Virus record (IMG/VR): IMGVR_UViG_3300032284_001177
Coordinates: 1 to 37,382 of that record
DNA: 37,382 nt
Source of the DNA: a virus
Reading direction: 5' to 3' (one strand)
This document shows positions 7,358-36,453 of this stretch, in pieces. Made by a program: the position numbers and the translations under genes. The notes beneath the pieces were generated by a model. The model made no database searches. It worked only from the letters and a program-made list of their open reading frames with translations, and was not told the origin of the DNA. Numbering within the stretch: the stretch's first letter is position 1; every line of letters starts with the position of its first letter.

Positions 7358-8499
7358 TGGCGAACCTGGCTTCTATTCTTAAATCGTCTGACATGCCCGC
7401 CCTGGCTGAATTGCTGCGAAAACATGGGCGCGGCAAAGACACGGTTTTGGCTCACATTACCCCGAAAGAAGCCGCTTTGCTCAAAGCTCGCGGTGGCCGT
7501 GGCAGCCGCAACCCCAAGACCGGTCTTTTGGAATTTGATGACGGGGTTGATTATTTTGCTCCCCGGACTGATGTTGGATCGTTTCAGACGCCTGCCGCTG
7601 ATGGCACCATTCAACTACCGTCCGGGTATGGTTCTACAGACGCTCAGATCAGGAACCAGTTGTCATCGGATTACACTGCTCAAATTGACAGTGGAAACGC
7701 CCAAGATGGCCAAACCATTTATAGTGGCTATCTCCCTACTTCCACTCAAACAGATATTTGGGGCATTCCAAACACAAGCCAGACAAACCAGGTGGTTATT
7801 GACGCGACTCGGTATGATAAAACCCCGGCTGCGTCTACGGCTGCTGATGTTGCTTCAATTCAGGGCGCTGGCAATAGGGAAATAGCGCCGGGTGGAGATC
7901 CGCAAGCGCAGGCTGCTGATGTGGCCGCGAAGCCTGTAGAAACTGCAACGCCTGCCGCCGCTAAACCGGCTGCAACCGATTGGTTGTCAAAACTGACTGA
8001 AAATCCTTTGAAACTGGCTCTTGGGCTTGGCGGTGCTGGTCTGGGCTTGTACAACCAGATGCAGGCTCGCAAGCAGGCTCAGGGCGTCGCCAATCAAGTT
8101 TCTGACCTTGCGGCGCAACAGAAGCAGATGGCGCAGCCTTACCTGACGGAAGGCGCTACCCAGTATGGGCAGGCTGTTCAGGGCCGGATGACGCCGGTTC
8201 AGCAACAGGCATTTGATGCGGCTCGTGCACAGATCGCCCAACAGGCATCCAGAACGGGTGCGGTCGGGGCGAACCAGGCGGTTGCCGTCGAGGAACGTAT
8301 GCGGCAGCAAGCTTTGAACGGTCAGCTTACGGCTGGCTTACAGCTTATTAACACTGGCGACACGATTATGAACCAGGCGTTCGATAATCAGATCAAGGCG
8401 TTGAACCAGAATGTCGCTTTGAACCAGCAGGCCAATCAGGCTTCAGCAAGCTTCTTTGGCGCGTTAGGTCAGTGGTTCGGAGGATCGAAGAATGCCTAA
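7357..8499 (+). CDS. Putative internal virion protein, 380 aa
   Basis: Begins at an ATG overlapping the previous stop (TAATG). Residues of about 1-60 contain AELLRKHGRGKDTVLAHITPKEAALLKARGGRG and a DDGVDYF end, a segment I associate with phage proteins of the injection cluster. The middle is Ala/Pro-rich. A short hydrophobic Gly-rich stretch near residues 218-230 is followed by Gln/Ala-rich helices with strong coiled-coil character (ARKQAQGVANQVSDLAAQQKQM). An ejection or internal core protein is the best guess; no catalytic motif is seen. Confidence 0.65.
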   Translation: MANLASILKSSDMPALAELLRKHGRGKDTVLAHITPKEAALLKARGGRGSRNPKTGLLEFDDGVDYFAPRTDVGSFQTPAADGTIQLPSGYGSTDAQIRNQLSSDYTAQIDSGNAQDGQTIYSGYLPTSTQTDIWGIPNTSQTNQVVIDATRYDKTPAASTAADVASIQGAGNREIAPGGDPQAQAADVAAKPVETATPAAAKPAATDWLSKLTENPLKLALGLGGAGLGLYNQMQARKQAQGVANQVSDLAAQQKQMAQPYLTEGATQYGQAVQGRMTPVQQQAFDAARAQIAQQASRTGAVGANQAVAVEERMRQQALNGQLTAGLQLINTGDTIMNQAFDNQIKALNQNVALNQQANQASASFFGALGQWFGGSKNA

Positions 8500-10183
8500 T
8501 GTCAATCTCGGTGACTCTGCCAGCACCCTTAATGTCAATCTCGGTGACTCTGCCAGCACCCTTTTTGCAAAACATCCGTTATCTAAGGATGCGTTCACGG
8601 CTGCTCCTAATTTTCAGGACATGAACACGACCAGCTTCGCCAAGTTGCAGAAATTGGCTGACGAGGCGACGACTTCTCAGGCCGGTCTGGCTGACGCCCA
8701 GACACAGGCGGCTGTACAGCAGAATGCGGCTCAAGGCCAGTACGCGCAGAAAGAAGCTGACTACATGCTGGCTGGCGCTCGCAAGGCTGAAGCCGCGCAA
8801 GAGCCTGTGCCGGATAAGTTCGCCCCGACGCAAGAGAACCACAGTGACATGGTGGCGCTGTTCTCCATGATCGGTGCTATTGGTGCCATGGGAGGCGGCA
8901 AGTCCTATGGCAGCGCCTTGGGGGCCATGCAGGCCATGGGCGGTATGCTACAGGGCTACACCAAGGGCAGGCAGGATCTATTCGAGCGGGAGAAGGTCGA
9001 GTTCGACAAGAACTTGCAGGCCGTGAAGGCTCATAACGACCAGATCAACGCTGCTTTTGACCGCTACATGAAGATGGCCCCAGCCAATCTGACTGCGGCC
9101 AAGAACGAATTGAACACAAAGCTGGTATCCATTGGGGCTAATTTACAGGCAAAACAAGTAGAAATGTCTGGCGCTCAACAAGCCTTTGAGAACCAGTTGA
9201 AGGTCACTCAAGAGCTTGCAAAGGTTACGACTGCTGCAAATAAATTGACGGGTACGGGCGGGTCTGGCACGGTCAATATTATAGGCCCAGATGGGAAGCC
9301 TATTGTTATAACGAAAAAGCAAGCAGTCGAAGCTGCTCAAGAAGGCAAGCCGTACACCCCTGCGAATAAATTGACCGAAGGCTCTGCCGCTATTGATGAC
9401 GCTACAGCTAAATTGTTAGCTGAACAGTTCATTTCAGGAAGAACACAGGCGCTTGCTGGCCTTGGGTCTGGGGCGTCTGGGGCGGCGAACAGATCCAAAG
9501 TATTAAATATGATTAGCCAAATTGCTCAAGAAAAAGGTTACAGCGGCGCTGATTTAGCTGCTAAGGCTCAAGAATATATGGGACTTGGGGCTGAAATGCG
9601 TGCTGCTGGCACGGCAAGCGCCAAGGTCGGCATGGCCGCTACTGAAACGAACAGGCTTTTCCAACCGGCTATCGAGACTTCCAAGAAAGTCAGTCGATTC
9701 AATTTTGTGCCTGCTAACAAGCTTCTTCAAATGGCTGAAGAAAATATTTCAGATCCAGATCTGGCAAAGTTCAAAACAGCTACGAAAGCTGTTATTAACA
9801 CTTATATCAAAGTTATGTCGCCGTTTGGCGTCCCGTCTGATTTTGTTAGAAAACATGCTTATGATTTGCTTGAAACGGCTGATAGCCAGGAGAAGTATGA
9901 AGCCGTTATTGATCAGATGAAGCTTGAAATTAATGCGGCAGTTGCCGCTCCTGAAGATTTTATAAGGAGCAGACTAAACCAATGGAAAGGTCTTAAAGAA
10001 CCGCCTGCGTCGTTCCCAAGAGGTGACGATCCGGGCGAAGCGGTTGCGCCAAAGCCTTCTGCTGCTTCTGGCGGCGGGAAACCTACGTTGCAACAATTCC
10101 TTGAAAAGGCAAAAGCGTCAAATCCAGGCTCTTCAGACCAAGAATTAACGGATTATTATAATAAGAAATACGGGAGTCAATAA
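8492..10183 (+). CDS. Putative internal virion protein, 563 aa
   Basis: Long, helical, Ala/Gln/Lys-rich protein overlapping the preceding gene by 8 bp. Residues 3-13 and 14-24 are an exact repeat encoded by a tandem 33-bp duplication. A Gly/Met-rich hydrophobic segment (ALFSMIGAIGAMGGG, about residues 126-140) precedes extended helices. The C-terminal part has an EQYYNKKYG-like ending after a Pro/Ser-rich linker. Adjacent to the 914-aa protein, it probably forms part of an ejectosome-like complex. Confident as a gene, moderate on role. Confidence 0.7.
   Translation: MPNVNLGDSASTLNVNLGDSASTLFAKHPLSKDAFTAAPNFQDMNTTSFAKLQKLADEATTSQAGLADAQTQAAVQQNAAQGQYAQKEADYMLAGARKAEAAQEPVPDKFAPTQENHSDMVALFSMIGAIGAMGGGKSYGSALGAMQAMGGMLQGYTKGRQDLFEREKVEFDKNLQAVKAHNDQINAAFDRYMKMAPANLTAAKNELNTKLVSIGANLQAKQVEMSGAQQAFENQLKVTQELAKVTTAANKLTGTGGSGTVNIIGPDGKPIVITKKQAVEAAQEGKPYTPANKLTEGSAAIDDATAKLLAEQFISGRTQALAGLGSGASGAANRSKVLNMISQIAQEKGYSGADLAAKAQEYMGLGAEMRAAGTASAKVGMAATETNRLFQPAIETSKKVSRFNFVPANKLLQMAEENISDPDLAKFKTATKAVINTYIKVMSPFGVPSDFVRKHAYDLLETADSQEKYEAVIDQMKLEINAAVAAPEDFIRSRLNQWKGLKEPPASFPRGDDPGEAVAPKPSAASGGGKPTLQQFLEKAKASNPGSSDQELTDYYNKKYGSQ
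8498..8563 (+). repeat. Perfect tandem 33-bp duplication
   Basis: Positions 8498-8530 are repeated exactly at 8531-8563, in frame, so that the N-terminus of the 563-aa protein carries the 11-residue sequence NVNLGDSASTL twice. The lack of any difference between copies points to a recent slippage event. Confidence 0.95.
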
Positions 10184-12927
10184 TGCCTATTATTGATCCG
10201 TTTGATACAAGCTCGAATGAGATTGTTGATCCATTTGATGCCCCTAAATCCGCGCCTAAAGAGGCTGAAATGGGCGGGCTTAAGCGCGTTCCTGTCCCTG
10301 AAATTACACCATCTTCCGGTTTCCGCCAGCAAGTTGCTGCGTCTATTGGACAAGGGCCGATTGAGCAAGAAGCAAAAGTCCCGCGTGATTTGGGAAGCCA
10401 ATATGGTCAACTGGCTAAAGGCATTCCAATCGGTATGGCTTCTTTCATCGGATCAGGAGCAGGCATCCCGGCTTTCGGTGAGGGTCTTGTTCGTTCTGGA
10501 TTGAGAGCGGCTGGCGCTGATGTAAGCCCTGAAACAGTTGCGCCTACTTCAGAGCGTGTCGGGACGTATTGGTTTGGCGAACCATCTAGTGAATATGAAG
10601 CCGCTGCCAGAACACTAGGGGAATATGCTGTCCCCGGAATACCTTTGGGCAAATTAAAAGCCGGGTTATCGCCTGCAACCAAAGCCATCAAGCCTGAAAC
10701 TGTCCTTAATCGCGTCTTAAAGACCGGCGAGGGCATTAGTTCTGTTGCCAGAAAGATGGCTGAAGAAAAGTATGGAGTTAACACTCAAAAGGCTAAAGAA
10801 GCCTATGAGCAAGCTATCAAGGGCGTTCAAGAGCGTATTGAAGCGGAAGGCGGCGTTTATGCACAACGTCTATCCCAAGCGGCTAAAAAGGCTCGTGAAG
10901 TTGTCGCGCCTGAAACTGTCCTTAATCGCGTCTTAAAGACCGGCGAGGATATTAGTTCTGTCGTTAGGAAGATAACTGAAGAAAAGTATGGAGTTGGCAC
11001 TCAAAAGGCTACAAAAGCCTATGAGCAGGCTATCAAGGGCGTTCAAGAGCGTACTGAGGCGGAAGGCGGCGTTTATGCACAACGTCTATCTCAAGCAGCT
11101 AAAAAGGCTCGTGAAGTTGTCGCGCCTGAAGACGAGGCTATTCGGTCAACTGCCAGAAAGGCTACGGGTCTTTCAGAGCCAATCATGATTTCTGATGAAT
11201 TAGAAACATTGGCGGCTGCAAAATACAAAGAGGCTGAAGCCAAAATCAAAAGCGGTAGTCAGGCTTATGATACGTTCGCTGATGCCGCCACGGCTCGCGA
11301 AAGCATTGTTCCGTTTGAAAACACCCCGCAAGGCCAAGCCTTGCACGCGCAACTGTCAGAAATATCTAGTGGCGGTAGCGGGGCTTTGACTGAATATACA
11401 GAACCAGAACTTAAAATAGCGACAGATATTATAAGTGAACTGTTCCCTAAGAAAGCTGCCGTGGTCACAGAGCAGCAAGTAGCTGAACTCGCTGCTAAAA
11501 ATCCTAACAAGTCCATGTCTCAGTCTGCCAAAATGTTTCAAGCCCGAAAAGAGCTTGAAGCTGCTGTTTCTGAAAAGGCTGCGGCAACAAGGCCTGTTAA
11601 CTATAGAGTTGTCAAACAGAAGGCTCAAGAGCTTCGCAATCTTCAGGAAACGCGCGGCGGTCCTGCCGGGTTTAAGCGCGAAATTGGTTCTCGTTATCAG
11701 GAACCGGCAAAAATGGTAGAAAACGCTTTGAAAGAATGGGTTGGCGAAGAAAACTGGCCGCATTCGATCTATCGTGAAAGCGCAAAGGAAAAGAACAGCT
11801 TTGAAGTTTCTCTCGGGAAGATCCTGAAAGAGAGGGAAGAAATCCCCTATAGCGACAAACCGGGTCCGTATAAAACGCCTAGAAAAGACGTTGAAAACGC
11901 TGTTTTTCGCAGCAAGGACGATACTCGTTACGCCAAGGAATTGCTTGGTGATGACGAGGTAAATCGTCTTGGCGCGGCTTACGCGGCGAACGAAACAAAG
12001 GGGTTTGATGCCAAGAACTTCCGCGCCTGGATGGAAATGAATGATTTTTACAAAGAGATCCCCGGCCTTGAGGATAAGTTGAAAGCTTACGGCCAAGCCC
12101 TTTCTAAGGGCGAGAAAGAAGCCAATGTGATGAAGACGCTGCGCTCCCAAAAAGAAAAGGAAGCCGAGGCGATTGCGGAAGAATTTAAGACCGTCAAACA
12201 GGACATCGCATCTCAGATTGAAACTGAAAAGAAATCTTTTGACAAAAAGATAAAAGAATTTGCCGACCAAAAAGACACGGCTTTCAAGACAATTGAGGAA
12301 TTTGAAAAAACATTCTCTTTTGACCCTCAAGTCGCTTTTAATAAAAAGGGGTTTGATGCCAAGAAATTCCGCGCTTGGATGGAACGGAATGATTTTTACA
12401 AAGAGATTCCCGGTCTTGAGGATAAGCTAAAAGCCTACGGCCAGGCGCTTTCCAAGGGCGAGCAAGAAGCCAATGTGATGAAGACGCTGCGTTCCCAGAA
12501 AGAAAAAGAAGCTGGCGCGATTGTGGAAGAATTTAAGAAAGTTAAGAAGGACATCGCATCTCAGATTGAAACTGAGAAAAAGTCTTTTGACAAAAAGATA
12601 AAAGAATTTGCCAACCAAAAAGACGCGGCTTTTAAAACAATCGAGAAGTTTGAAAAAACATTCTCTTTTGACCCTCAAGCCGCTGTTAATAATTGGGTTG
12701 AGTTAAGAAGCGAACTGGAAAAAACAGGGGTGTTCGATTCGGCTGCTCTTAATGAGTTTGAATCTGTGTTGAATAAGGCGGCAAAAGAACAAAAGTCCAA
12801 GGAATTTACGGATGAGGTTAAAAAATTGCTTACAGATGGGGTTAAAAAATTGCTTGGTAAGTTACTGAGCAAGAAGGGTTTAGGGGTTGTTGGCGCTGGG
12901 GCCGCGTATGAGCTTTTCAAGAAGTGA
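10183..12927 (+). CDS. Large putative internal virion (ejection) protein with two internal duplications, 914 aa
   Basis: The largest protein encoded. The N-terminus (IDPFDTSSNEIVDPFDAP) carries a short repeated DPFD motif, followed by a Gly/Ala-rich hydrophobic stretch at about residues 75-110. Two 72-residue units (about 171-314) and two 116-residue units (about 606-837) follow, both highly charged and coiled-coil-like. The C-terminal 40 residues are Lys/Leu/Gly-rich, with a possible amphipathic membrane segment (LLGKLLSKKGLGVVGAGAA). Length, helicity and position match the biggest inner-core proteins of podoviruses. No lysozyme or protease motif is visible. Confidence 0.7.
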   Translation: MPIIDPFDTSSNEIVDPFDAPKSAPKEAEMGGLKRVPVPEITPSSGFRQQVAASIGQGPIEQEAKVPRDLGSQYGQLAKGIPIGMASFIGSGAGIPAFGEGLVRSGLRAAGADVSPETVAPTSERVGTYWFGEPSSEYEAAARTLGEYAVPGIPLGKLKAGLSPATKAIKPETVLNRVLKTGEGISSVARKMAEEKYGVNTQKAKEAYEQAIKGVQERIEAEGGVYAQRLSQAAKKAREVVAPETVLNRVLKTGEDISSVVRKITEEKYGVGTQKATKAYEQAIKGVQERTEAEGGVYAQRLSQAAKKAREVVAPEDEAIRSTARKATGLSEPIMISDELETLAAAKYKEAEAKIKSGSQAYDTFADAATARESIVPFENTPQGQALHAQLSEISSGGSGALTEYTEPELKIATDIISELFPKKAAVVTEQQVAELAAKNPNKSMSQSAKMFQARKELEAAVSEKAAATRPVNYRVVKQKAQELRNLQETRGGPAGFKREIGSRYQEPAKMVENALKEWVGEENWPHSIYRESAKEKNSFEVSLGKILKEREEIPYSDKPGPYKTPRKDVENAVFRSKDDTRYAKELLGDDEVNRLGAAYAANETKGFDAKNFRAWMEMNDFYKEIPGLEDKLKAYGQALSKGEKEANVMKTLRSQKEKEAEAIAEEFKTVKQDIASQIETEKKSFDKKIKEFADQKDTAFKTIEEFEKTFSFDPQVAFNKKGFDAKKFRAWMERNDFYKEIPGLEDKLKAYGQALSKGEQEANVMKTLRSQKEKEAGAIVEEFKKVKKDIASQIETEKKSFDKKIKEFANQKDAAFKTIEKFEKTFSFDPQAAVNNWVELRSELEKTGVFDSAALNEFESVLNKAAKEQKSKEFTDEVKKLLTDGVKKLLGKLLSKKGLGVVGAGAAYELFKK
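10693..11124 (+). repeat. Two tandem 216-bp units
   Basis: 10693-10908 and 10909-11124 are highly similar in-frame copies encoding 72 residues each, beginning with PETVLNRVLKTGE and ending with KKAREVVA. The start of a third unit at 11125 diverges at once. The many silent and a few replacement differences between the copies suggest an older event than the 33-bp duplication. Confidence 0.9.
11998..12693 (+). repeat. Two tandem 348-bp units
   Basis: 11998-12345 and 12346-12693 encode two copies of a 116-residue charged helical unit starting KGFDAKNFRAWME or KGFDAKKFRAWME and ending with FSFDPQ. Differences are scattered third-position changes with few replacements, consistent with purifying selection on both copies. 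Confidence 0.9.
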
Positions 12928-22673: not shown

Positions 22674-22952
22674 CTAAATAGTTCGACGAAAACGGTTTGG
22701 CGAAACAGTTCCGTAGCCGTAGCCGTCGCCGTCGCCGTTGCCGTAGCCGACGCCGTATCTGTTGCCGTAGCCGTAGCCGACGCCTTCGCCGTTGCCGTAG
22801 CCGTAGCCGTCGCCGTAGCCGTCGCCGTTGCCGTAGTCGACGTGGTCGCCGTTGCCGTAGCCGACGCCGTAGATGTTGCCGTAGCCGTAGCCGTCGCCGT
22901 CGCCGTTGCCGTAGCCGTGGCCGTCGCCGACCGGCATTATCTTATCAATCAT
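22674..22952 (-). CDS. Gly-X dipeptide repeat protein from GGC-NAC hexamers, 92 aa
   Basis: After an 8-residue start, about 73 residues are almost purely alternating Gly and Tyr, Asp, Asn or His, closing with SPNRFRRTI. At DNA level the minus strand is an array of GGC NAC hexamers. In most units only the base N varies. Higher-order units (YGYGN-I/R-YGVGYGNGD) recur about 40 residues apart. The ATG overlaps the preceding stop and GGGGG precedes it, so it is a real cistron. Low-complexity, probably phase-separating or adhesive; function unknown. Confidence 0.8.
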   Translation of the reverse strand: MIDKIMPVGDGHGYGNGDGDGYGYGNIYGVGYGNGDHVDYGNGDGYGDGYGYGNGEGVGYGYGNRYGVGYGNGDGDGYGYGTVSPNRFRRTI

Positions 22953-28889: not shown

Positions 28890-29458
28890 CTGACGTTGAC
28901 AACCAGGATTTCATAGGCGCAATGGACAAAGACCACGCTATGAAAACGTGGCAACAAACGGTTGATGCCTATCCGTTTATGAAAGACGTTCAGTTTTTCT
29001 ACAATCCTCCCGGCGTTCAACGCCCTGGCGACGCTGGATTAGAAACTTATCCCGTTGGAGAAGAATATCGACCTACCGGACTGCCTATGGACAAGGTTGG
29101 GATTGGCGCTTGGTCCTCACAAGGTCTTTCTCCAGAAGGGTTCGTCGGCGATTACTTGACTCATCACATGATTTACAACGATCCCAAAATGTCTGAAATG
29201 TACAAGCAGTTCCAGACCGCGACGGGGGCTTATCCTGCTGGTCAAGATTTTTTAAAAGAGCTATATCGGGAAGCCACGCAAGATCGAGCTTTGAAAGAAA
29301 CCCGCCCGTATGAACAATGGTTGGAGCAATCCGGCTGGCCGCAATACCTCAGAGGCTACGTGTCAAAACAATTTAACCCTTCAGATTACGCAAAAGTTTA
29401 TTCTCCTGATCAAATCAAAATCATGGATCAAATGAGACAAGCATTGGGGCTTAAGTGA
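28886..29458 (+). CDS. Unrecognised protein directly before terminase, 190 aa
   Basis: Has segments PGVQRPGDAGLETYPVGEEYRPTGLPMD, PEGFVGDYLTHHMIY, DPKMSEMYKQFQ and PYEQWLEQSGWPQYLRGYVSKQF. I recall a similar domain inside large phage virion polyproteins, often as one module of many. The ATG has AGGAGG 6 nt upstream. The position immediately before terminase would suit a small terminase, but no DNA-binding helix-turn-helix is apparent. Confidence 0.65.
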   Translation: MTDVDNQDFIGAMDKDHAMKTWQQTVDAYPFMKDVQFFYNPPGVQRPGDAGLETYPVGEEYRPTGLPMDKVGIGAWSSQGLSPEGFVGDYLTHHMIYNDPKMSEMYKQFQTATGAYPAGQDFLKELYREATQDRALKETRPYEQWLEQSGWPQYLRGYVSKQFNPSDYAKVYSPDQIKIMDQMRQALGLK

Positions 29459-31218
29459 CGTTCAATCTAAAACAATTCTACCACTTCTGTCACCAGTTGA
29501 GGATTGAGACAAAAGAAAAGGGGCTGATTCGTATGGATCAGCTTCTTGGCACTCAGACTTATGTGATGGATGAGGTTGCCAAGGGGCTGGAGAATGATGT
29601 TCATTTCTTTGTTGTTCTGAAGGGTAGGCAGCTAGGCATTACGACGATCAGCCTGGCTCTGGATCTGTACTGGCATTTTATCAATCCTGGCCTTCAGGGC
29701 ACGTTGGTGACTGATACAGAGGAAAACCGGGACATGTTTCGCGGTACGCTGGCGATGTACATCGACGGCCTGCCGAACGAGTTCAAGATCCCGATGATCG
29801 CCCATAACCGGAACGCCCTGAGCCTCAGAAACAGGTCGAGGTTGTTTTACCAGGTGGCTGGATTAAGGGCCAAAGGTAGCCTTGGGCGCGGTAAGGGCAT
29901 AACCTTCCTGCATGGTACGGAAACAAGTTCCTGGGGCGACGAGGAAGGTCTGGCTTCGCTGCTGGCGTCCTTGGCCGAAAGCAACCCTTTGCGCTACTAC
30001 ATGTTTGAAAGCACTGCTCGTGGCTTCAACATGTTTCACGATATGTATATGACCGCCAAAAAGGCCAGAACTCAAAAAGCGATCTTCTGTGGCTGGTGGC
30101 GCAATCAGTATTACTCGGCTGACCCGGCAAGCGAAATCTACAAGGTCTACTGGGACGGCAAGCTGACCGGCGAGGAAAAGGAATGGACCCGCGACATCAG
30201 GAAAATGTACGGGATTGAAATCAATTCCCGGCAGATCGCCTGGTGGCGGTGGAAGTCGGCTGAAGGCATCAAGGATGATTCTTTGATGTATCAGGAGTTC
30301 CCGCCGACCGAAGACTATGCTTTCGTCATGACCGGGAGTAGCTTCTTCTCAAGCTCGCGATGCACCGACGCCATGAAGGTGGCGCGGAATTGCCAGTTTG
30401 ACGCCTATCGATACGTCATGGGAGCCAACTTTGAAGATACCCAAGTCCTCAAAAGCCGGGAAGCAGTCGCAACCCTCAAAGTCTGGGAAGAACCCATCGA
30501 CACCGCCTATTACGTTATCGGTGCTGATCCTGCTTATGGATCCTCAGACTGGGCTGACCGCTTCTGTATTAGCGTCTTCCGATGTTACGCAGACGGAATG
30601 GAACAGGTTGCTGAGTTCACCACATCAGAGCTTAACACCTATCAGTTTGCCTGGGCTATTGCCCATCTGGCCGGAGCATACAAGAACTCTACACTGAACC
30701 TTGAGGTCAATGGACCCGGACAGGCTGTCATCAATGAACTCAAGAATCTTAAGCGTTTGGCCGTGGCTATGGGCGGCAAGCGTGGTAATAGCCTTATGGA
30801 TGTCCTCGCACACATGACCAATTACATCTGGCGCAAGAACGATTCCATGAACGGAATCTCTGGCAGCATCGGATGGCTGACGACGACGCAATCCAAAGAA
30901 CGTATGCTCTCGTACTACAAGGATTATTTCGAGCGCGGCATGTGCGTGGTCAAATCGCCAGATCTGCTGGAGGAAATGAAAACCATTGTCAGGGACGGCG
31001 GCACAATCTCAGCGCCAGGCCGGGGTAAGGATGATCGGGTGATCGCAGCCGCTCTGGCCGCAGCAGCCTATGCCGAACAGCTTCAGCCCAGACTGATCGC
31101 CATGCGGATCACCAAGGCCATCAGCCACGCTCAGGAAGCCCATACGCCCGAAGAAATCTCGGTCGGCAAGAACGTCTCGAACTACCTCAAGAACATTGGC
31201 CTGTATGGTTCCCAATGA
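29455..31218 (+). CDS. Terminase large subunit, 587 aa
   Basis: The packaging motor and headful or site nuclease. The ATPase region has a Walker A-like LKGRQLGITT (about residues 55-64) and Walker B-like FLHGTE (151-156). The nuclease domain begins around YYVIGADPAYGSSDWAD (first acidic residue about 357), with later LEVNGPGQAVINEL. Starts at GTG overlapping the previous stop. Length is usual for the family. The ATPase-nuclease order is normal. Confidence 0.92.
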   Translation: MTFNLKQFYHFCHQLRIETKEKGLIRMDQLLGTQTYVMDEVAKGLENDVHFFVVLKGRQLGITTISLALDLYWHFINPGLQGTLVTDTEENRDMFRGTLAMYIDGLPNEFKIPMIAHNRNALSLRNRSRLFYQVAGLRAKGSLGRGKGITFLHGTETSSWGDEEGLASLLASLAESNPLRYYMFESTARGFNMFHDMYMTAKKARTQKAIFCGWWRNQYYSADPASEIYKVYWDGKLTGEEKEWTRDIRKMYGIEINSRQIAWWRWKSAEGIKDDSLMYQEFPPTEDYAFVMTGSSFFSSSRCTDAMKVARNCQFDAYRYVMGANFEDTQVLKSREAVATLKVWEEPIDTAYYVIGADPAYGSSDWADRFCISVFRCYADGMEQVAEFTTSELNTYQFAWAIAHLAGAYKNSTLNLEVNGPGQAVINELKNLKRLAVAMGGKRGNSLMDVLAHMTNYIWRKNDSMNGISGSIGWLTTTQSKERMLSYYKDYFERGMCVVKSPDLLEEMKTIVRDGGTISAPGRGKDDRVIAAALAAAAYAEQLQPRLIAMRITKAISHAQEAHTPEEISVGKNVSNYLKNIGLYGSQ

Positions 31219-31611: not shown

Positions 31612-32073
31612 ATGGCTATTCTGCGATCCTACAAGTGCCTTGAACACGGATACTTTGACGCCTGGGAGGCCATGTGTCCCCACGGCTGTCTCGACGTGGG
31701 ACAGGTTATTATCAAAGCGCCGTCCATGCGCGACTCGACCAAGGCCGCTAAGACCAAATCGGCTGACAATACGCTGAAAGGTTTGGCCAAAGACTTCAAC
31801 ATGACGGACATCAAGTCGGTCAAGGAAGGCGAAGCCCAGAACGGCTATCTGACCCGAAACAATGCCAAGCCGCCAGAACCCAGAGCCGGTGATGCGGTTA
31901 TGTGGGGCCAGGGCGGGCGGTTCAACATGGCTTCCGTTTTGGGCGGTGGTGCGGTAAGGTCTGTGGCGGGTGAGCCGGTGGGGATACGGCCACAAGACAT
32001 CAACCTGACTCAGGGGCCTCGGCCAGATCCGAACGCCACGATGCGGGACCATGAAGGCTTGAAGATTAAATGA
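31612..32073 (+). CDS. Zinc-ribbon-like conserved phage protein, 153 aa
   Basis: N-terminal YKCLEHGYFDAWEAMCPHGCLDVGQV has Cys9, His12, Cys22 and Cys26, a possible zinc site. The remainder is low-complexity with KAAKTKSADNTLKGLAKDF and RAGDAVMWGQGGRFN. It lies between the HTH-like gene and the portal gene; I associate this pattern with small conserved phage genes beside portal genes. GGGGAC precedes the ATG. Confidence 0.75.
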   Translation: MAILRSYKCLEHGYFDAWEAMCPHGCLDVGQVIIKAPSMRDSTKAAKTKSADNTLKGLAKDFNMTDIKSVKEGEAQNGYLTRNNAKPPEPRAGDAVMWGQGGRFNMASVLGGGAVRSVAGEPVGIRPQDINLTQGPRPDPNATMRDHEGLKIK

Positions 32074-33689
32074 GAATCCCTTCCAAGGCCGAAGACCGCG
32101 AGTTTTTCTATCTGGATCTCATGCAAAAGTGCATGGTGTCGCGGGACGCCCGCAGATCCGATTATGCGTCTCTTCGATCCTGGTTTCTGTTTGGCGCTGG
32201 GCCAGAAGACAGCCCGGCGCATTACAACAAGATCTACAGCCACATCGACCAGCTTACGAGTTTCCTGTACTCGGCGGAAACAACGCGCTTCAGCATCAAC
32301 CTTGGAGCATCGGCGCGTCCGTACCTTACAAGGTACATACCCGCCCTAACCCAGAAGCTTCACGATGAATGGAACAATTCGAACGCCGATCAGGTGTTTG
32401 ACTCTGCCCTGTCCTGGGGCCTGGTGTTCAACTCGGCCTTCATCAAGCTTGTGGTCAATCGCGGTTCGATCCATCCTTATTTTTGCGATCCCGGCAATAT
32501 CGGCGTCTTAAGGGAAGACATCCCCTATACGGATCGGCAAGAGGCGCTTTGCCATACCTATTACATTACAAAATCAGAGCTTTACGCCCGGCTTTACGCG
32601 CATCCAAAGCGCGATAGCATTATTTCCCGCGTCGGCGCGCAGCAGCATCAGCCAACCCATATTCCCAATGGCGTTGACAGAATTGTGATGTCCCAAGTCA
32701 ATTCGACCATCGCGGGCAATCTCAACATGGATCTTTACGGCTTCAATCGCATGAAAGCGGAAGTCGCTGAAGACACTGTTGAAATGATGGATCTTTATGT
32801 CTGGGATGACGAGGAAAACGATTACCAGATCGTCACCCGCGCCGAACCCGATGTGATCATTTATGACCGGCCCAACGGCGAAATGTTCCTGAAAGGCGAA
32901 TTGCCCTTCGTTCAGGTCTGCCCGTCGCCTCAGTATGACTATTACTGGGGTCAATCAGAAGTTCAGAAGCTCGTTTATCTTCAGCAAATGCGTAATAAGC
33001 GTATGCAGGAAATTCTCGATCTTTTGTCCAAACAGGTGAACCCGCCGACCAGCCTCATGGGCTTCACGGGTATTCTGGACGAAAAAAACTTTGCCCTCAA
33101 TCGGGCTGGCGGTTTGCTGTCAACCGATATGCCAAACGCCAAGGTTGAGCGTATGGCTCCAACCATTCCGCAGGATCTTTACGCGCAATTGAAAGAAATC
33201 GACGCCATGTTCGAGGAAGCCTCGGGCATCAGCAACGTGTTGTCTGGGCGCGGCGAGCAGGGCGTGCGCTCGGCTGGCCATGCCTCACAGCTTGCCCGAC
33301 TTGGATCGTCCCGCGCCAAAAAACGCGCGCTCGTGGTCGAGGATAGTCTTGAGAAACTGGCGACGCTCTATCTGAAGCTGATCCAGGTCTATGAGCCTGA
33401 AGCCTTGCTGGATACAGAAGGCAACAAGTTCATTCCTGAGCAATTCACCAAAGATTATGTCGTCAAGGTAGACGCGCATTCCAACAGCCCAATCTTCATG
33501 GAAGACGCGCGCTCGCTGGCGTTCAACCTGTTCAAGGCCCAGGCCATCGACAAGGAAAGCCTGCTTGAGCTTCTTGATCCGCCGATGAAGCAAATGCTGA
33601 AAGAGAAATTGAAGGTTATGGAAGCCAAGGCGGCGTCGCAGCCGCAGAACGTCACGCCCATGAAGAAATCAGGAGGCCAGAATGGCTAA
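32070..33689 (+). CDS. Portal protein, 539 aa
   Basis: Forms the dodecameric portal through which DNA enters and leaves the head. It follows terminase and precedes the scaffold and coat genes. Recognisable parts include YNKIYSHIDQLTSFLYSAETTRFSI, LSWGLVFNSAFIKLVV and PFVQVCPSPQYDYYWGQSEVQKLVYLQQMRNKRMQEILDLLS. A C-terminal helical region follows with VRSAGHASQLARLGSSRAKKRALVVEDSLEKLATLYLK. The start overlaps the previous stop (ATGA). Length is typical. Confidence 0.88.
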   Translation: MRIPSKAEDREFFYLDLMQKCMVSRDARRSDYASLRSWFLFGAGPEDSPAHYNKIYSHIDQLTSFLYSAETTRFSINLGASARPYLTRYIPALTQKLHDEWNNSNADQVFDSALSWGLVFNSAFIKLVVNRGSIHPYFCDPGNIGVLREDIPYTDRQEALCHTYYITKSELYARLYAHPKRDSIISRVGAQQHQPTHIPNGVDRIVMSQVNSTIAGNLNMDLYGFNRMKAEVAEDTVEMMDLYVWDDEENDYQIVTRAEPDVIIYDRPNGEMFLKGELPFVQVCPSPQYDYYWGQSEVQKLVYLQQMRNKRMQEILDLLSKQVNPPTSLMGFTGILDEKNFALNRAGGLLSTDMPNAKVERMAPTIPQDLYAQLKEIDAMFEEASGISNVLSGRGEQGVRSAGHASQLARLGSSRAKKRALVVEDSLEKLATLYLKLIQVYEPEALLDTEGNKFIPEQFTKDYVVKVDAHSNSPIFMEDARSLAFNLFKAQAIDKESLLELLDPPMKQMLKEKLKVMEAKAASQPQNVTPMKKSGGQNG

Positions 33690-33825
33690 AGCTCCGACAC
33701 GCTCTGGAGATCAACCAAAGGCCAGCGCAAAGACAATTGACAAGGCCATGAAACCAGCTAATCTACAGTTCAAGACTGTGAATATAAAACCGTTGGCCAA
33801 GCCAGTGGTGAAGCGGGGCAAGTGA
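33682..33825 (+). CDS. Short basic protein, 47 aa
   Basis: Begins MAKAPTRSGDQPKASAKTIDKAM and ends KPLAKPVVKRGK; strongly basic, probably disordered. It overlaps the portal gene by 8 bp with AGGAGG 5 nt before the ATG. It is the first of four consecutive basic ORFs and its stop overlaps the next ATG. Confidence 0.7.
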   Translation: MAKAPTRSGDQPKASAKTIDKAMKPANLQFKTVNIKPLAKPVVKRGK

Positions 33826-33869
33826 TGTACAAGTCAGTCAAGCGCAGCCGTCGAGGCAAGCGAAAGTAA
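33825..33869 (+). CDS. Basic micro-ORF 1, MYKSVKRSRRGKRK, 14 aa
   Basis: ATG overlaps the stop of the 47-aa gene (TGATG). Eight of 14 residues are Lys or Arg. Part of a series of three micropeptides sharing an RRxGKR/RRKGRK-like core. Likely nucleic-acid binding, if translated. Confidence 0.55.
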   Translation: MYKSVKRSRRGKRK

Positions 33870-33911
33870 TCTACAGTTGGGGGACGGTTTTCTAACCACG
33901 GAGGCCATCAC

Positions 33912-33947
33912 ATGGCACGTCGTAAGGGTCGCAAGAGCCGCAAGTGA
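33912..33947 (+). CDS. Basic micro-ORF 2, MARRKGRKSRK, 11 aa
   Basis: ATG with GGAGG 8 nt upstream in otherwise non-coding sequence. Shares the core RRKGRK-S/A-R with micro-ORF 3. Seven of 11 residues are basic. A strong ribosome-binding site before so short an ORF suggests that it is expressed. Confidence 0.6.
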   Translation: MARRKGRKSRK

Positions 33948-34004
33948 ACTCTGGCTTAGGCTGAAGTTTATTTACTTTCCATTCCTCTAAAGCGGGAGCG
34001 CAAC

Positions 34005-34037
34005 ATGCGTCGCAAGGGTCGTAAGGCTCGTCGGTAA
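34005..34037 (+). CDS. Basic micro-ORF 3, MRRKGRKARR, 10 aa
   Basis: ATG preceded by GGGAG at 7 nt spacing. Seven of 10 residues are Arg or Lys. Nearly the same peptide as micro-ORF 2 despite different flanking DNA. It ends 5 bp before a hairpin terminator, so the micro-ORFs close this transcription unit. Confidence 0.6.
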   Translation: MRRKGRKARR

Positions 34038-34042
34038 CTAAT

Positions 34043-34061
34043 AAACGGGTTAGACCCGTTT
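34043..34061 (+). terminator. Hairpin terminator after the micro-ORFs
   Basis: AAACGGGT and ACCCGTTT form an 8-bp stem with a 3-nt loop, followed by TGTTATC, only weakly T-rich. With the second hairpin at 34071-34090 it probably attenuates read-through into the capsid genes. Confidence 0.6.
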
Positions 34062-34070
34062 GTTATCGAG

Positions 34071-34090
34071 TTTCCCTTGGGGGAGGGAAA
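34071..34090. other. Second intergenic hairpin
   Basis: TTTCCCT and AGGGAAA form a 7-bp stem around a G-rich 6-nt loop. It lies between the first hairpin and the promoter at 34110. Confidence 0.5.
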
Positions 34091-34109
34091 TCCAAAAAAT
34101 ATCCCCCAC

Positions 34110-34138
34110 TTGACATTTCACAGATTATACCTGTTAAA
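34110..34138 (+). promoter_or_regulatory. Sigma70-like promoter of the capsid genes
   Basis: A perfect -35 TTGACA (34110-34115), a 17-bp spacer and a weaker -10, GTTAAA (34133-34138). The start of transcription is expected at about 34145-34147, at most three bases before the ATG at 34148, which lacks a Shine-Dalgarno sequence. Confidence 0.55.
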
Positions 34139-34147
34139 CTGGCTCAC

Positions 34148-34630
34148 ATGGCAGACGATCAAATCATGAGCCTGTTGGCTCGACAACAGAATCAACCCAC
34201 TGGTGGCGTCTCTATGATGCCTGGGGCTGACGATGCTACTGCGTCGCCGCCGATGTCTTCGCCCATGTCCACGCCGGAACCCAAGAATGGGCAGCGTGAA
34301 TCGGCATTGGTGAACGTCAGTATGGCTCTGGACCTTCTTGAGCAGTCCCTTCCGGCGATTGGAAGCGAGACGCCCGAAGGCCAGAAGCTTGTTTCCGCTT
34401 TGAGCGCCCTGACTTCCGTTCTTGGCCCCAAGAAACAGAAGGCTGGCGAAATGCAGTCGGCGGAAATCCTCCAATTGCTTCAGAGCCTCCCGCAAGCTGG
34501 CGGTGGTCAGCCCGGTCCCAAGACGATTGCCGCAGCCGGTCCCCAGATTGGTCAGGCTCCTCCGCCCCCTATGGGTGGACCCCCCGGAATGCCCCCTGGA
34601 ATGCCTCCGGGTGGCGGAATGCCCATGTAG
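34148..34630 (+). CDS. Pro/Gly/Met-rich protein before the scaffold, 160 aa
   Basis: Unrecognised. The N-terminus MADDQIMSLLARQQNQP and the central helix-rich part (SALVNVSMALDLLEQSLPAIG, QSAEILQLLQSLPQAG) are followed by a C-terminal Pro/Gly/Met tail (about residues 137-160, PPGMPPG repeats). It may aid scaffold or head assembly. No ribosome-binding site; the ATG sits at the predicted transcription start, so translation may be leaderless. Confidence 0.75.
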   Translation: MADDQIMSLLARQQNQPTGGVSMMPGADDATASPPMSSPMSTPEPKNGQRESALVNVSMALDLLEQSLPAIGSETPEGQKLVSALSALTSVLGPKKQKAGEMQSAEILQLLQSLPQAGGGQPGPKTIAAAGPQIGQAPPPPMGGPPGMPPGMPPGGGMPM

Positions 34631-34845: not shown

Positions 34846-35391
34846 ATGCCTTCTCTTGAAGATCTTACGCCCGACGCCCGCGACGAACTCGCCTTGCTGG
34901 CTCGCGAGCTTGCGGAAAACCCGCAGACTCGTGAGCAGTTCTTGCGCCTGACCAAATCGGCGCGTCCAAATGTTTCCATTGATTCGATTGACCTCAAGGA
35001 TGAGGTTTCGCGCGTTGTGGAAGAAGCCAATTCCCGCGTTTCGCAGATGGAAAACAAGCTGCGCGAGCGTGATGCGCTGGACGATTTGAAAGAAAGGCGT
35101 CGTAATCTGCTTCAGTCTGGAAAGGCGAAGTCGAGGGACGACATTGAGAAGATCGAAAAGCTGATGCTCGAAAAGGGCATCCAGAACCACGAAACAGCAG
35201 CCGATTATTTCGACTGGATGAATAAAGCGGCGACGCCGACTCCTTCCAAGCAGTTCAATCAAAATGTGCTGGATGAGAGTGCGCGGGGCATTCTTTCAAA
35301 GTTTTGGAAGAACCCGCAAGGCGCTGCCCGTGACGAAGCTTCAAAGGCCCTGATGGAAATGCGGAAGAACCCGCGCCCGATTGGCATTTGA
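34846..35391 (+). CDS. Putative scaffolding protein, 181 aa
   Basis: Highly charged and helical throughout, with a coiled-coil middle (VSRVVEEANSRVSQMENKLRERDALDDLKERRRNLL) and a basic C-terminus (EMRKNPRPIG), placed directly before the coat gene: the usual character and position of head scaffolds. AGGGGACACAT precedes the ATG. The name rests on context and composition. Confidence 0.7.
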   Translation: MPSLEDLTPDARDELALLARELAENPQTREQFLRLTKSARPNVSIDSIDLKDEVSRVVEEANSRVSQMENKLRERDALDDLKERRRNLLQSGKAKSRDDIEKIEKLMLEKGIQNHETAADYFDWMNKAATPTPSKQFNQNVLDESARGILSKFWKNPQGAARDEASKALMEMRKNPRPIGI

Positions 35392-35430: not shown

Positions 35431-36453
35431 ATGGCCATCGGTGGGGGCATCGTCCCAGCATCAGGCAGTACACAGTATAACGAACTAACGTACGTCACCA
35501 GGCGTGCGTTTATCCCCAAGATGGTCGTGCAGATCTACAACAGCACGCCCCTCATGGCGGCGCTGATTGCAAACTCGCAGACTGCCACGGGCGGTGTTTC
35601 GTCCGTCACGGTTCCTGTGCAGGGCGCTCAGTTCGTTAACGCTCAGTGGTCAGATTATTCTGGCTCGTTCAACCAGCCTGCCGTCCAGCAGGGTGCGTTC
35701 AATGCCGAGTTCAATCTCAAACTTATGATTGCTCCGGTTCCGTTCCTTGGAATGGAAGGCGCTGTCCAGCAGGATCACGCGATCATCCCGCTTATTGAAG
35801 CGCGTATGAACGACGCGACCAACGTGATGCTCGACGCGATGGCGTATTCGCTGTACAACAACACGTCGAACGCCCAGCAGTTCATCGGCCTCCCGGCTGC
35901 TGTTGACGATGGCACGACTTCTGGTGCGGCCACTTATGGCAACATCACCCGTTCCTCGACCGTCAATCCGTGGTGGCGTTCCAAGCTGTACGCTGCTGGA
36001 TCGGTCAACCCGACTCGTCAGAACATCCTTCAGTACATCTCTGGTACTGTCAAGAATGGCGCTGAAGTCCCGACCTTCGGCGTTTGCGGCTTCGGCACCT
36101 GGACGCTTCTGGCTCAGGATTATGTTGGTCAGGAACAGTATGTCATTACCCCAGGTCACGGGTTTGATGACAACTCGACCGGCCCGCAGGCTGCGTTCCG
36201 CGCCCTTATGGTCGCTGGCGTGCCGGTCTACCCGGACCCGTACTGCCCCGAAGGCACGGTGTACTTCCTGAACTCCAACTATCTCTCGCTCTATATCCAC
36301 GAGCAGGGCCAGTTTGTGTTCACCGGCTTTGAGTCCACCCTTCCGAACTGGCAGATTGGCTATGTCGGCGCGGTTCTGACGATTGCCGAACTCGTCAACG
36401 TGAAGCCCAAGGCCATGACGAAGGTTACGGGCTACAACAGTATCAGCCTGTAA
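35431..36453 (+). CDS. Major capsid (coat) protein, 340 aa
   Basis: Probable HK97-fold coat. It follows a scaffold-like gene, has the expected length, and has the strong codon regularity of an abundant protein. Segments FIPKMVVQIYNSTPLMAALI, MIAPVPFLGMEGAVQQDHAII and MNDATNVMLDAMAYSLYNN resemble coat proteins of other phages. The C-terminal half contains TPGHGFDDNSTGPQAAFRALMVAGVPVYPDPYCPEGTVYFLN, similar to the P-domain and E-loop-type parts of these folds. The start has GGAG 7 nt upstream. Confidence 0.85.
   Translation: MAIGGGIVPASGSTQYNELTYVTRRAFIPKMVVQIYNSTPLMAALIANSQTATGGVSSVTVPVQGAQFVNAQWSDYSGSFNQPAVQQGAFNAEFNLKLMIAPVPFLGMEGAVQQDHAIIPLIEARMNDATNVMLDAMAYSLYNNTSNAQQFIGLPAAVDDGTTSGAATYGNITRSSTVNPWWRSKLYAAGSVNPTRQNILQYISGTVKNGAEVPTFGVCGFGTWTLLAQDYVGQEQYVITPGHGFDDNSTGPQAAFRALMVAGVPVYPDPYCPEGTVYFLNSNYLSLYIHEQGQFVFTGFESTLPNWQIGYVGAVLTIAELVNVKPKAMTKVTGYNSISL

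Follow-up and report, generated by a model that had tools for sequence, protein, structure and literature searches.

Comparative evidence for lysine- and arginine-rich micro-genes of 10 to 14 codons beside the portal gene in a group of tailed phages

The J peptides of microviruses are about 25–40 amino acids long, with a capsid-binding C-terminus, and belong to an ssDNA capsid. These and the J-like peptides of gokushoviruses are the closest counterparts of the peptides described here, being very small, Lys/Arg-rich, encoded beside capsid genes and proposed to bind packaged DNA; but the peptides described here would have 10–16 residues and the basic core only, and are encoded by a tailed dsDNA phage in two or three gene copies. 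The hydrophobic or aromatic C-terminus of the J type is absent from the peptides we tabulated, which end in RKARK, RKARR or similar. Protamines and viral core peptides such as adenovirus mu have the same Arg/Lys-dense, DNA-neutralising composition, but they are longer and belong to eukaryotic or animal-virus systems, and homology is not claimable at 10 residues; of protamine-like properties, high Arg/Lys content is present here, and abundance is suggested by codon bias and ribosome-binding sites (RBSs; see below). In BIV Tat an arginine-rich motif lies within a larger protein and has one defined RNA target. The arginine-rich motifs of the lambda and P22 N proteins likewise lie within larger proteins that have a single defined RNA target (PMC11480772). 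Common to these and to the present peptides is a short Arg/Lys-rich segment, which in theirs is sufficient to bind nucleic acid, whereas here the peptide is on its own, next to RNA that varies or is missing. We found no description of this micro-ORF family in the open-access papers searched; it may have been listed before in Fremin 2022, which is said to be the main paper on phage small genes, of the kind missed by standard annotation. The GMSC catalogue, also concerned with small genes that standard annotation misses, accepts ORFs from 30 nt; it notes that very short peptides defeat homology search, and its taxonomy database omits phages (PMC11364881).

The window, by which we mean the whole stretch of DNA analysed, comes from IMG/VR, where it is a virus record 37,382 bases long. 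The features that concern us are these:

29455-31218: terminase gene
32070..33689, plus strand: portal protein gene (Pfam SU10_portal, phrog_1216)
33682..33825, plus strand: gene of a 47-aa basic protein, the “DQPR” gene (motifs DQP and NLQ; basic C-terminus)
33825..33869, plus strand: micro-ORF 1, family A, MYKSVKRSRRGKRK
33877..33897, plus strand: conserved spacer motif TTGGGGACG...CTAAC
33900..33904, plus strand: RBS of micro-ORF 2, GGAGG
33912..33947, plus strand: micro-ORF 2, family B, MARRKGRKSRK
33994..33998, plus strand: RBS of micro-ORF 3, GGGAG
34005..34037, plus strand: micro-ORF 3, the last copy of family B, MRRKGRKARR
34043..34061, plus strand: covarying hairpin AAACGGG-TTAGA-CCCGTTT, 5 nt past the last stop codon, with no T-run
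34070..34108, plus strand: H-type RNA pseudoknot (GTTTCCCT/AGGGAAAT; loop GGGGG with CCCCC; A-rich linker)
34110..34115, plus strand: conserved TTGACA, likely the -35 promoter element for the transcript that follows
34148..34630, plus strand: 160-aa Pro/Met-rich head-module protein
34846..35391, plus strand: 181-aa Glu/Lys-rich protein (no family match in PHROGs or Pfam), probably the scaffold
35431..36453, plus strand: major capsid protein, MCP (phrog_9953)

The 47-aa gene, which matched no known protein family in PHROGs or Pfam, is found in most relatives, and the 160-aa Pro/Met-rich gene comes next in nearly all relatives whose sequence reaches that far; several independent tests support the placement of the micro-ORFs in the head-gene module. 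Micro-ORF 1 and the 47-aa gene overlap at TGATG, the former starting inside the stop codon of the latter, which suggests coupled translation of the two.

Three Lys/Arg-rich micro-ORFs of 14, 11 and 10 aa had been reported in 33825-34037, and their coordinates and peptides were correct. When every ORF of 8–40 aa starting with ATG, GTG or TTG was ranked by Lys/Arg fraction on both strands of the whole window (789 + 900 starts), the three took the first three ranks (0.70, 0.64 and 0.57), and the next independent short ORF had 0.46. Micro-ORFs 2 and 3 indeed have good RBSs (GGAGG and GGGAG), and the likeness of their cores also stands; but that these cores are written in unlike DNA was an overstatement, since the 27-nt stretches are identical at 19 of 27 positions and differ within the shared RRKGRK part by two synonymous wobble bases only. 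The real evidence for selection on the peptide is found in the relatives, not in the DNA of ORF 2 compared with that of ORF 3.

A portal similarity search gave 80 loci, and nearly all of those with enough downstream sequence have two or three micro-ORFs (near +160, +250 and +330, counted from the portal stop); 80 further loci came from the L083 portal as query. By a pattern scan independent of portals (an RBS followed by MAR...KGRKAR[RK] and a stop), at least 78 new loci were found among the matches listed: all 78 that were read have a family B micro-ORF here, and 71 adjoin a portal, while seven lie on short contigs that hold downstream genes only. Copy number varies: among 209 unique sites, 208 have at least one micro-ORF, 188 at least two and 57 three, in a set that takes in the pattern-scan loci and is thus biased to presence (the portal-based set of 316 sites, below, is fairer). 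The one exception, L042, has micro-ORFs after all, about 1 kb further downstream, beyond an insertion. As judged from these genomes, the micro-genes are kept as peptides, beside the portal gene, in hundreds of related, mostly uncultured phages.

The peptides fall into two families. Family A has the consensus (M)YK-x-x-KRGRKTRR and kin; family B, to which micro-ORFs 2 and 3 of the window belong, has MARKARKGRKARK and kin, with a small-Arg-Lys triplet repeat. Counted back from the stop at 197 sites, the last copy has R (185 sites), K (190), G (184), R (194), K (195), A/S/G (191), R (176) and K (140). In family B as a whole there is almost no variation at Arg and Lys positions.

Parsimony on the portal tree placed 98, 94 and 246 changes at codon positions 1, 2 and 3 of nine codons of the last micro-ORF (chi-square p ~5e-23), and about 47 changes per site in the downstream flank vs about 10 at the first two codon positions. 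Single-base changes in this ORF were synonymous in 186 cases and nonsynonymous in 18 (91% synonymous, with 26% expected), an omega-like ratio of 0.03. The basic-residue filter raises the proportion of synonymous changes at Lys/Arg codons; it does not touch the Gly and Ala/Ser/Gly columns, and these have 42 synonymous vs 6 nonsynonymous changes. The check that the first-pass annotation had suggested in relatives (conserved start and RBS, synonymous change at Lys/Arg codons) was thus run, and revealed a synonymous excess in frame together with conservation of start, stop and RBS. With several independent tests in agreement on the peptide-level selection proposed there, the micro-ORFs are almost certainly real, peptide-selected genes, and genes of 10 codons are recognisable by comparative evidence alone.

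It had also been suspected that automatic gene callers had missed a family here, and no micro-ORF is annotated in the deposited relatives. Among 50,697 phage records, the portal matched only MW202825 and MW202753, both of environmental source (Manatee Spring) with no host given; their micro-ORFs are unannotated and overlain by antisense hypothetical genes. Such genes (L082 6779-7039; L083 4740-4877 and 4874-5038) are probably spurious. Current annotation both misses genes of this size and sets antisense genes over them.

Arginine codons are CGT or CGC in 97% of cases in the distinct last copies, vs 81% in the MCP, 65% in the portal and 56% in the terminase genes; the codon bias of the micro-ORFs is at least as strong as that of the capsid gene, and the stop is TAA in 112 of 113 distinct last copies. 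In 182 of 197 micro-ORFs the AAGGAGG core is present over 4 nt or more, at a suitable distance. Such codons and RBSs, together with gene dosage, suggest an abundant product, and disfavour attenuation by rare codons.

The distribution has limits, which we followed in scans with the portals of L280, L276, L279 and L452 as queries. Two subclades have the same head genes without the basic form of the micro-ORFs, and 73 sites are scored absent in the tree of 316 (L414, L415 and L417 among them by an effect of the filter, since at least L414 and L417 carry MYARKMMRGRKTRR). Related genomes lacking the ORFs, named in the first-pass annotation as evidence against them, thus do exist; but parsimony gives presence as the root state, with at least 7 changes afterwards, so these lineage losses limit how essential the micro-genes are (not strictly, given the two subclades) and do not refute them as genes. 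In part of one subclade a longer Lys/Met/Pro peptide is found there instead (MYGKMPKPMKKPPMRDGKRS, MAYKMPMKPMKRPPMRDGKRS), as if charge, and not exact sequence, mattered. This Lys/Met/Pro-rich replacement lineage comprises L276, L354, L356, L357, L360, L363 and L364, and a T-tailed terminator follows the peptide in L276, L361 and L364. MTNRLRKWRK was rejected as a relocated copy in the L280 clade, as it is out of frame within a scaffold-like gene. In L337, ~230-275 nt past the portal stop, a family B copy has ATA in place of its ATG start and is otherwise intact; this may be a sequencing error, an alternative start or recent decay.

The peptides persist in L452, L454, L116 and L273, whose portals are 43–47% identical to that of the window: for example, L452 (45%) encodes MARKHKRAKRK and MARHMRRSRRK, and L454 (43%) MARKSRRHKRK and MARRMRRHKRK. 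No convincing micro-ORFs were found in phiEco32 or in the distant-capsid isolates Mx9, BUCT555, Mwe-JY13, ppBjS10J-1, the TM7 phage and MW202803.

The first-pass annotation had offered a protamine-like condenser, a scaffold or portal cofactor, and an effector of host ribosomes or RNA, and sequence cannot separate these. The reading that we tentatively prefer is that the products are abundant nucleic-acid-binding peptides of the head module. They would be free peptides of 10–14 residues (up to ~22 in relatives) with roughly seven to ten positive charges, their basic residues arrayed as a regular small-Arg-Lys repeat, encoded at the end of the terminase-portal transcript next to the capsid genes. 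Strong RBSs, common codons and a gene number of two or three point to a product made in bulk late in infection. They may bind the phosphate backbone of phage DNA in the manner of protamines or the microvirus J peptide, and so might help packaging or neutralise DNA inside the head. Their translation, abundance, nucleic-acid binding and presence in the virion we infer. The near-fixed Arg/Lys order counts against a DNA-binding role, as it exceeds what bulk neutralisation needs, with the caveat that an Arg-Lys exchange through CGN codons takes two changes; at ~400 copies (the capsid-protein number, an assumption), the peptides would neutralise only ~5% of a 36-kb genome. Nor is the basic form indispensable for packaging, as two subclades do without it and keep the same head genes. 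It is possible, if doubtful, that these are among the shortest conserved stand-alone genes known (10–14 codons) and make up, in a widespread clade of tailed phages, a virion or assembly peptide system, protamine-like or polyamine-replacing, previously undescribed in dsDNA tailed phages. Should the peptides prove to be virion components, tailed phages would possess a peptide system for neutralising DNA, comparable with protamines and microvirus J. In any case the peptide family is well enough defined for virion peptidomics, with ARKARKGRKARK, RRKGRKARR and family A as the sequences to look for, and for DNA- and RNA-binding tests.

Of the other readings, the one that fares best, unlikely as we consider it, is an assembly cofactor, which would bind to scaffold, portal or capsid through their acidic surfaces and aid procapsid assembly with no condensing of DNA; the fixed site between the portal and the scaffold and capsid genes, the near-fixed residue order and the MCP-like codon bias are all consistent with it, but the head genes of two subclades are kept without basic micro-ORFs.

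The flanking RNA bears on the next reading. The post-stop hairpin is real: its mean 32-nt MFE is -9.9, vs -4.9 in shuffled sequences and -2.2 to -3.5 at other gene ends, and with its compensatory changes 93% is paired, a value reached in 0 of 500 shuffles. Its earlier description as a terminator holds for the hairpin and not for a canonical intrinsic terminator, a candidate we rejected since there is no T-run and the terminator scan of the window was empty there. The pseudoknot at 34070-34108 scores highest of all plus-strand candidates in the window. MAFFT aligned the region poorly, and each sequence was tested individually: the strict form occurs in 82 of 164 regions vs 13 of 820 shuffles, with covarying stems. 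No known RNA family was found, and for the pseudoknot none in Rfam; it may be a novel element of these phages, regulatory or at the transcript end. The T4 gene 32 leader also has an H-type pseudoknot in phage mRNA upstream of a gene (PMC3014915), but the one found here has no known binding protein, and where it lies points to the 3′ end of the upstream transcript, since at its place a T-tailed terminator or a T-run, then TTGAC, is found in sister clades that lack family B; we read the hairpin and the pseudoknot together in this way. In relatives a conserved TTGAC likewise comes after the pseudoknot; a sigma-70 promoter scan gave no scored promoter at the TTGACA of the window. In L452 and L454 the next gene comes immediately after the micro-ORFs, and neither a hairpin nor a pseudoknot was seen, so the peptides need not act through those structures. 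Separately, a second conserved spacer element, GGGT.TGGCTG(C/A)(C)TTCCC...GTGGCC, divides family A from family B in a sister clade (L083 4818-4864; L082 6869-6915; L273 ~7937-7975), at the place that the motif at 33877..33897 has in the window, and a candidate pseudoknot of the A-B spacer with TGGCTG(CC)TT is weakly above shuffles (61/100 vs 89/300).

Peptides that resemble arginine-rich motifs, flanked by a covarying hairpin and pseudoknot, could act as lambda N or BIV Tat do, on nearby RNA, and control the capsid operon. We consider this distinctly unlikely: the hairpin sequence varies widely while the peptide is constant, with no conserved cognate RNA element, L452 and L454 dispense with such structures, and the sister clades just mentioned have ordinary terminators or T-runs at the pseudoknot's place.

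It is also distinctly unlikely that the peptides are directed at the host, binding ribosomes, rRNA, RNA polymerase or the nucleoid and slowing the host late in infection. They are short, soluble and, by inference, abundant, and are like the basic tails of ribosomal proteins (general knowledge), but the site is the late head module, not among early host-takeover genes, and they are conserved among phages of probably diverse hosts. The portal relatives fall in bins of unrelated bacteria.

Very unlikely, in our judgement, is a leader-peptide role, in which the act of translation and not the product matters and ribosome stalling controls the hairpin downstream. The last stop codon does lie 5 nt before the conserved hairpin; but the codons are common, not rare regulatory ones (Arg 97% CGT/CGC), the exact residue order is kept, Gly and Ala included, only one of up to three copies adjoins a strong hairpin, L452 and L454 have no hairpin, and no terminator was found downstream in the window for an attenuator to use. 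Chance, or a by-product of conserved non-coding DNA, has a negligible probability in spite of some nucleotide conservation of the core and flanks, being contradicted by the wobble-only variation, the omega-like ratio and the far faster change of the flanks.

Elsewhere in the window, which has no tRNA, a six-base tandem array of CCGTAG (~36 copies, 22711-22929) makes a spurious plus-strand Arg/Ser-rich ORF. A 914-aa gene (10183-12927) contains direct duplications of 216 and 348 bp (10692-11130, 11997-12692), with 92% and 89% matching.
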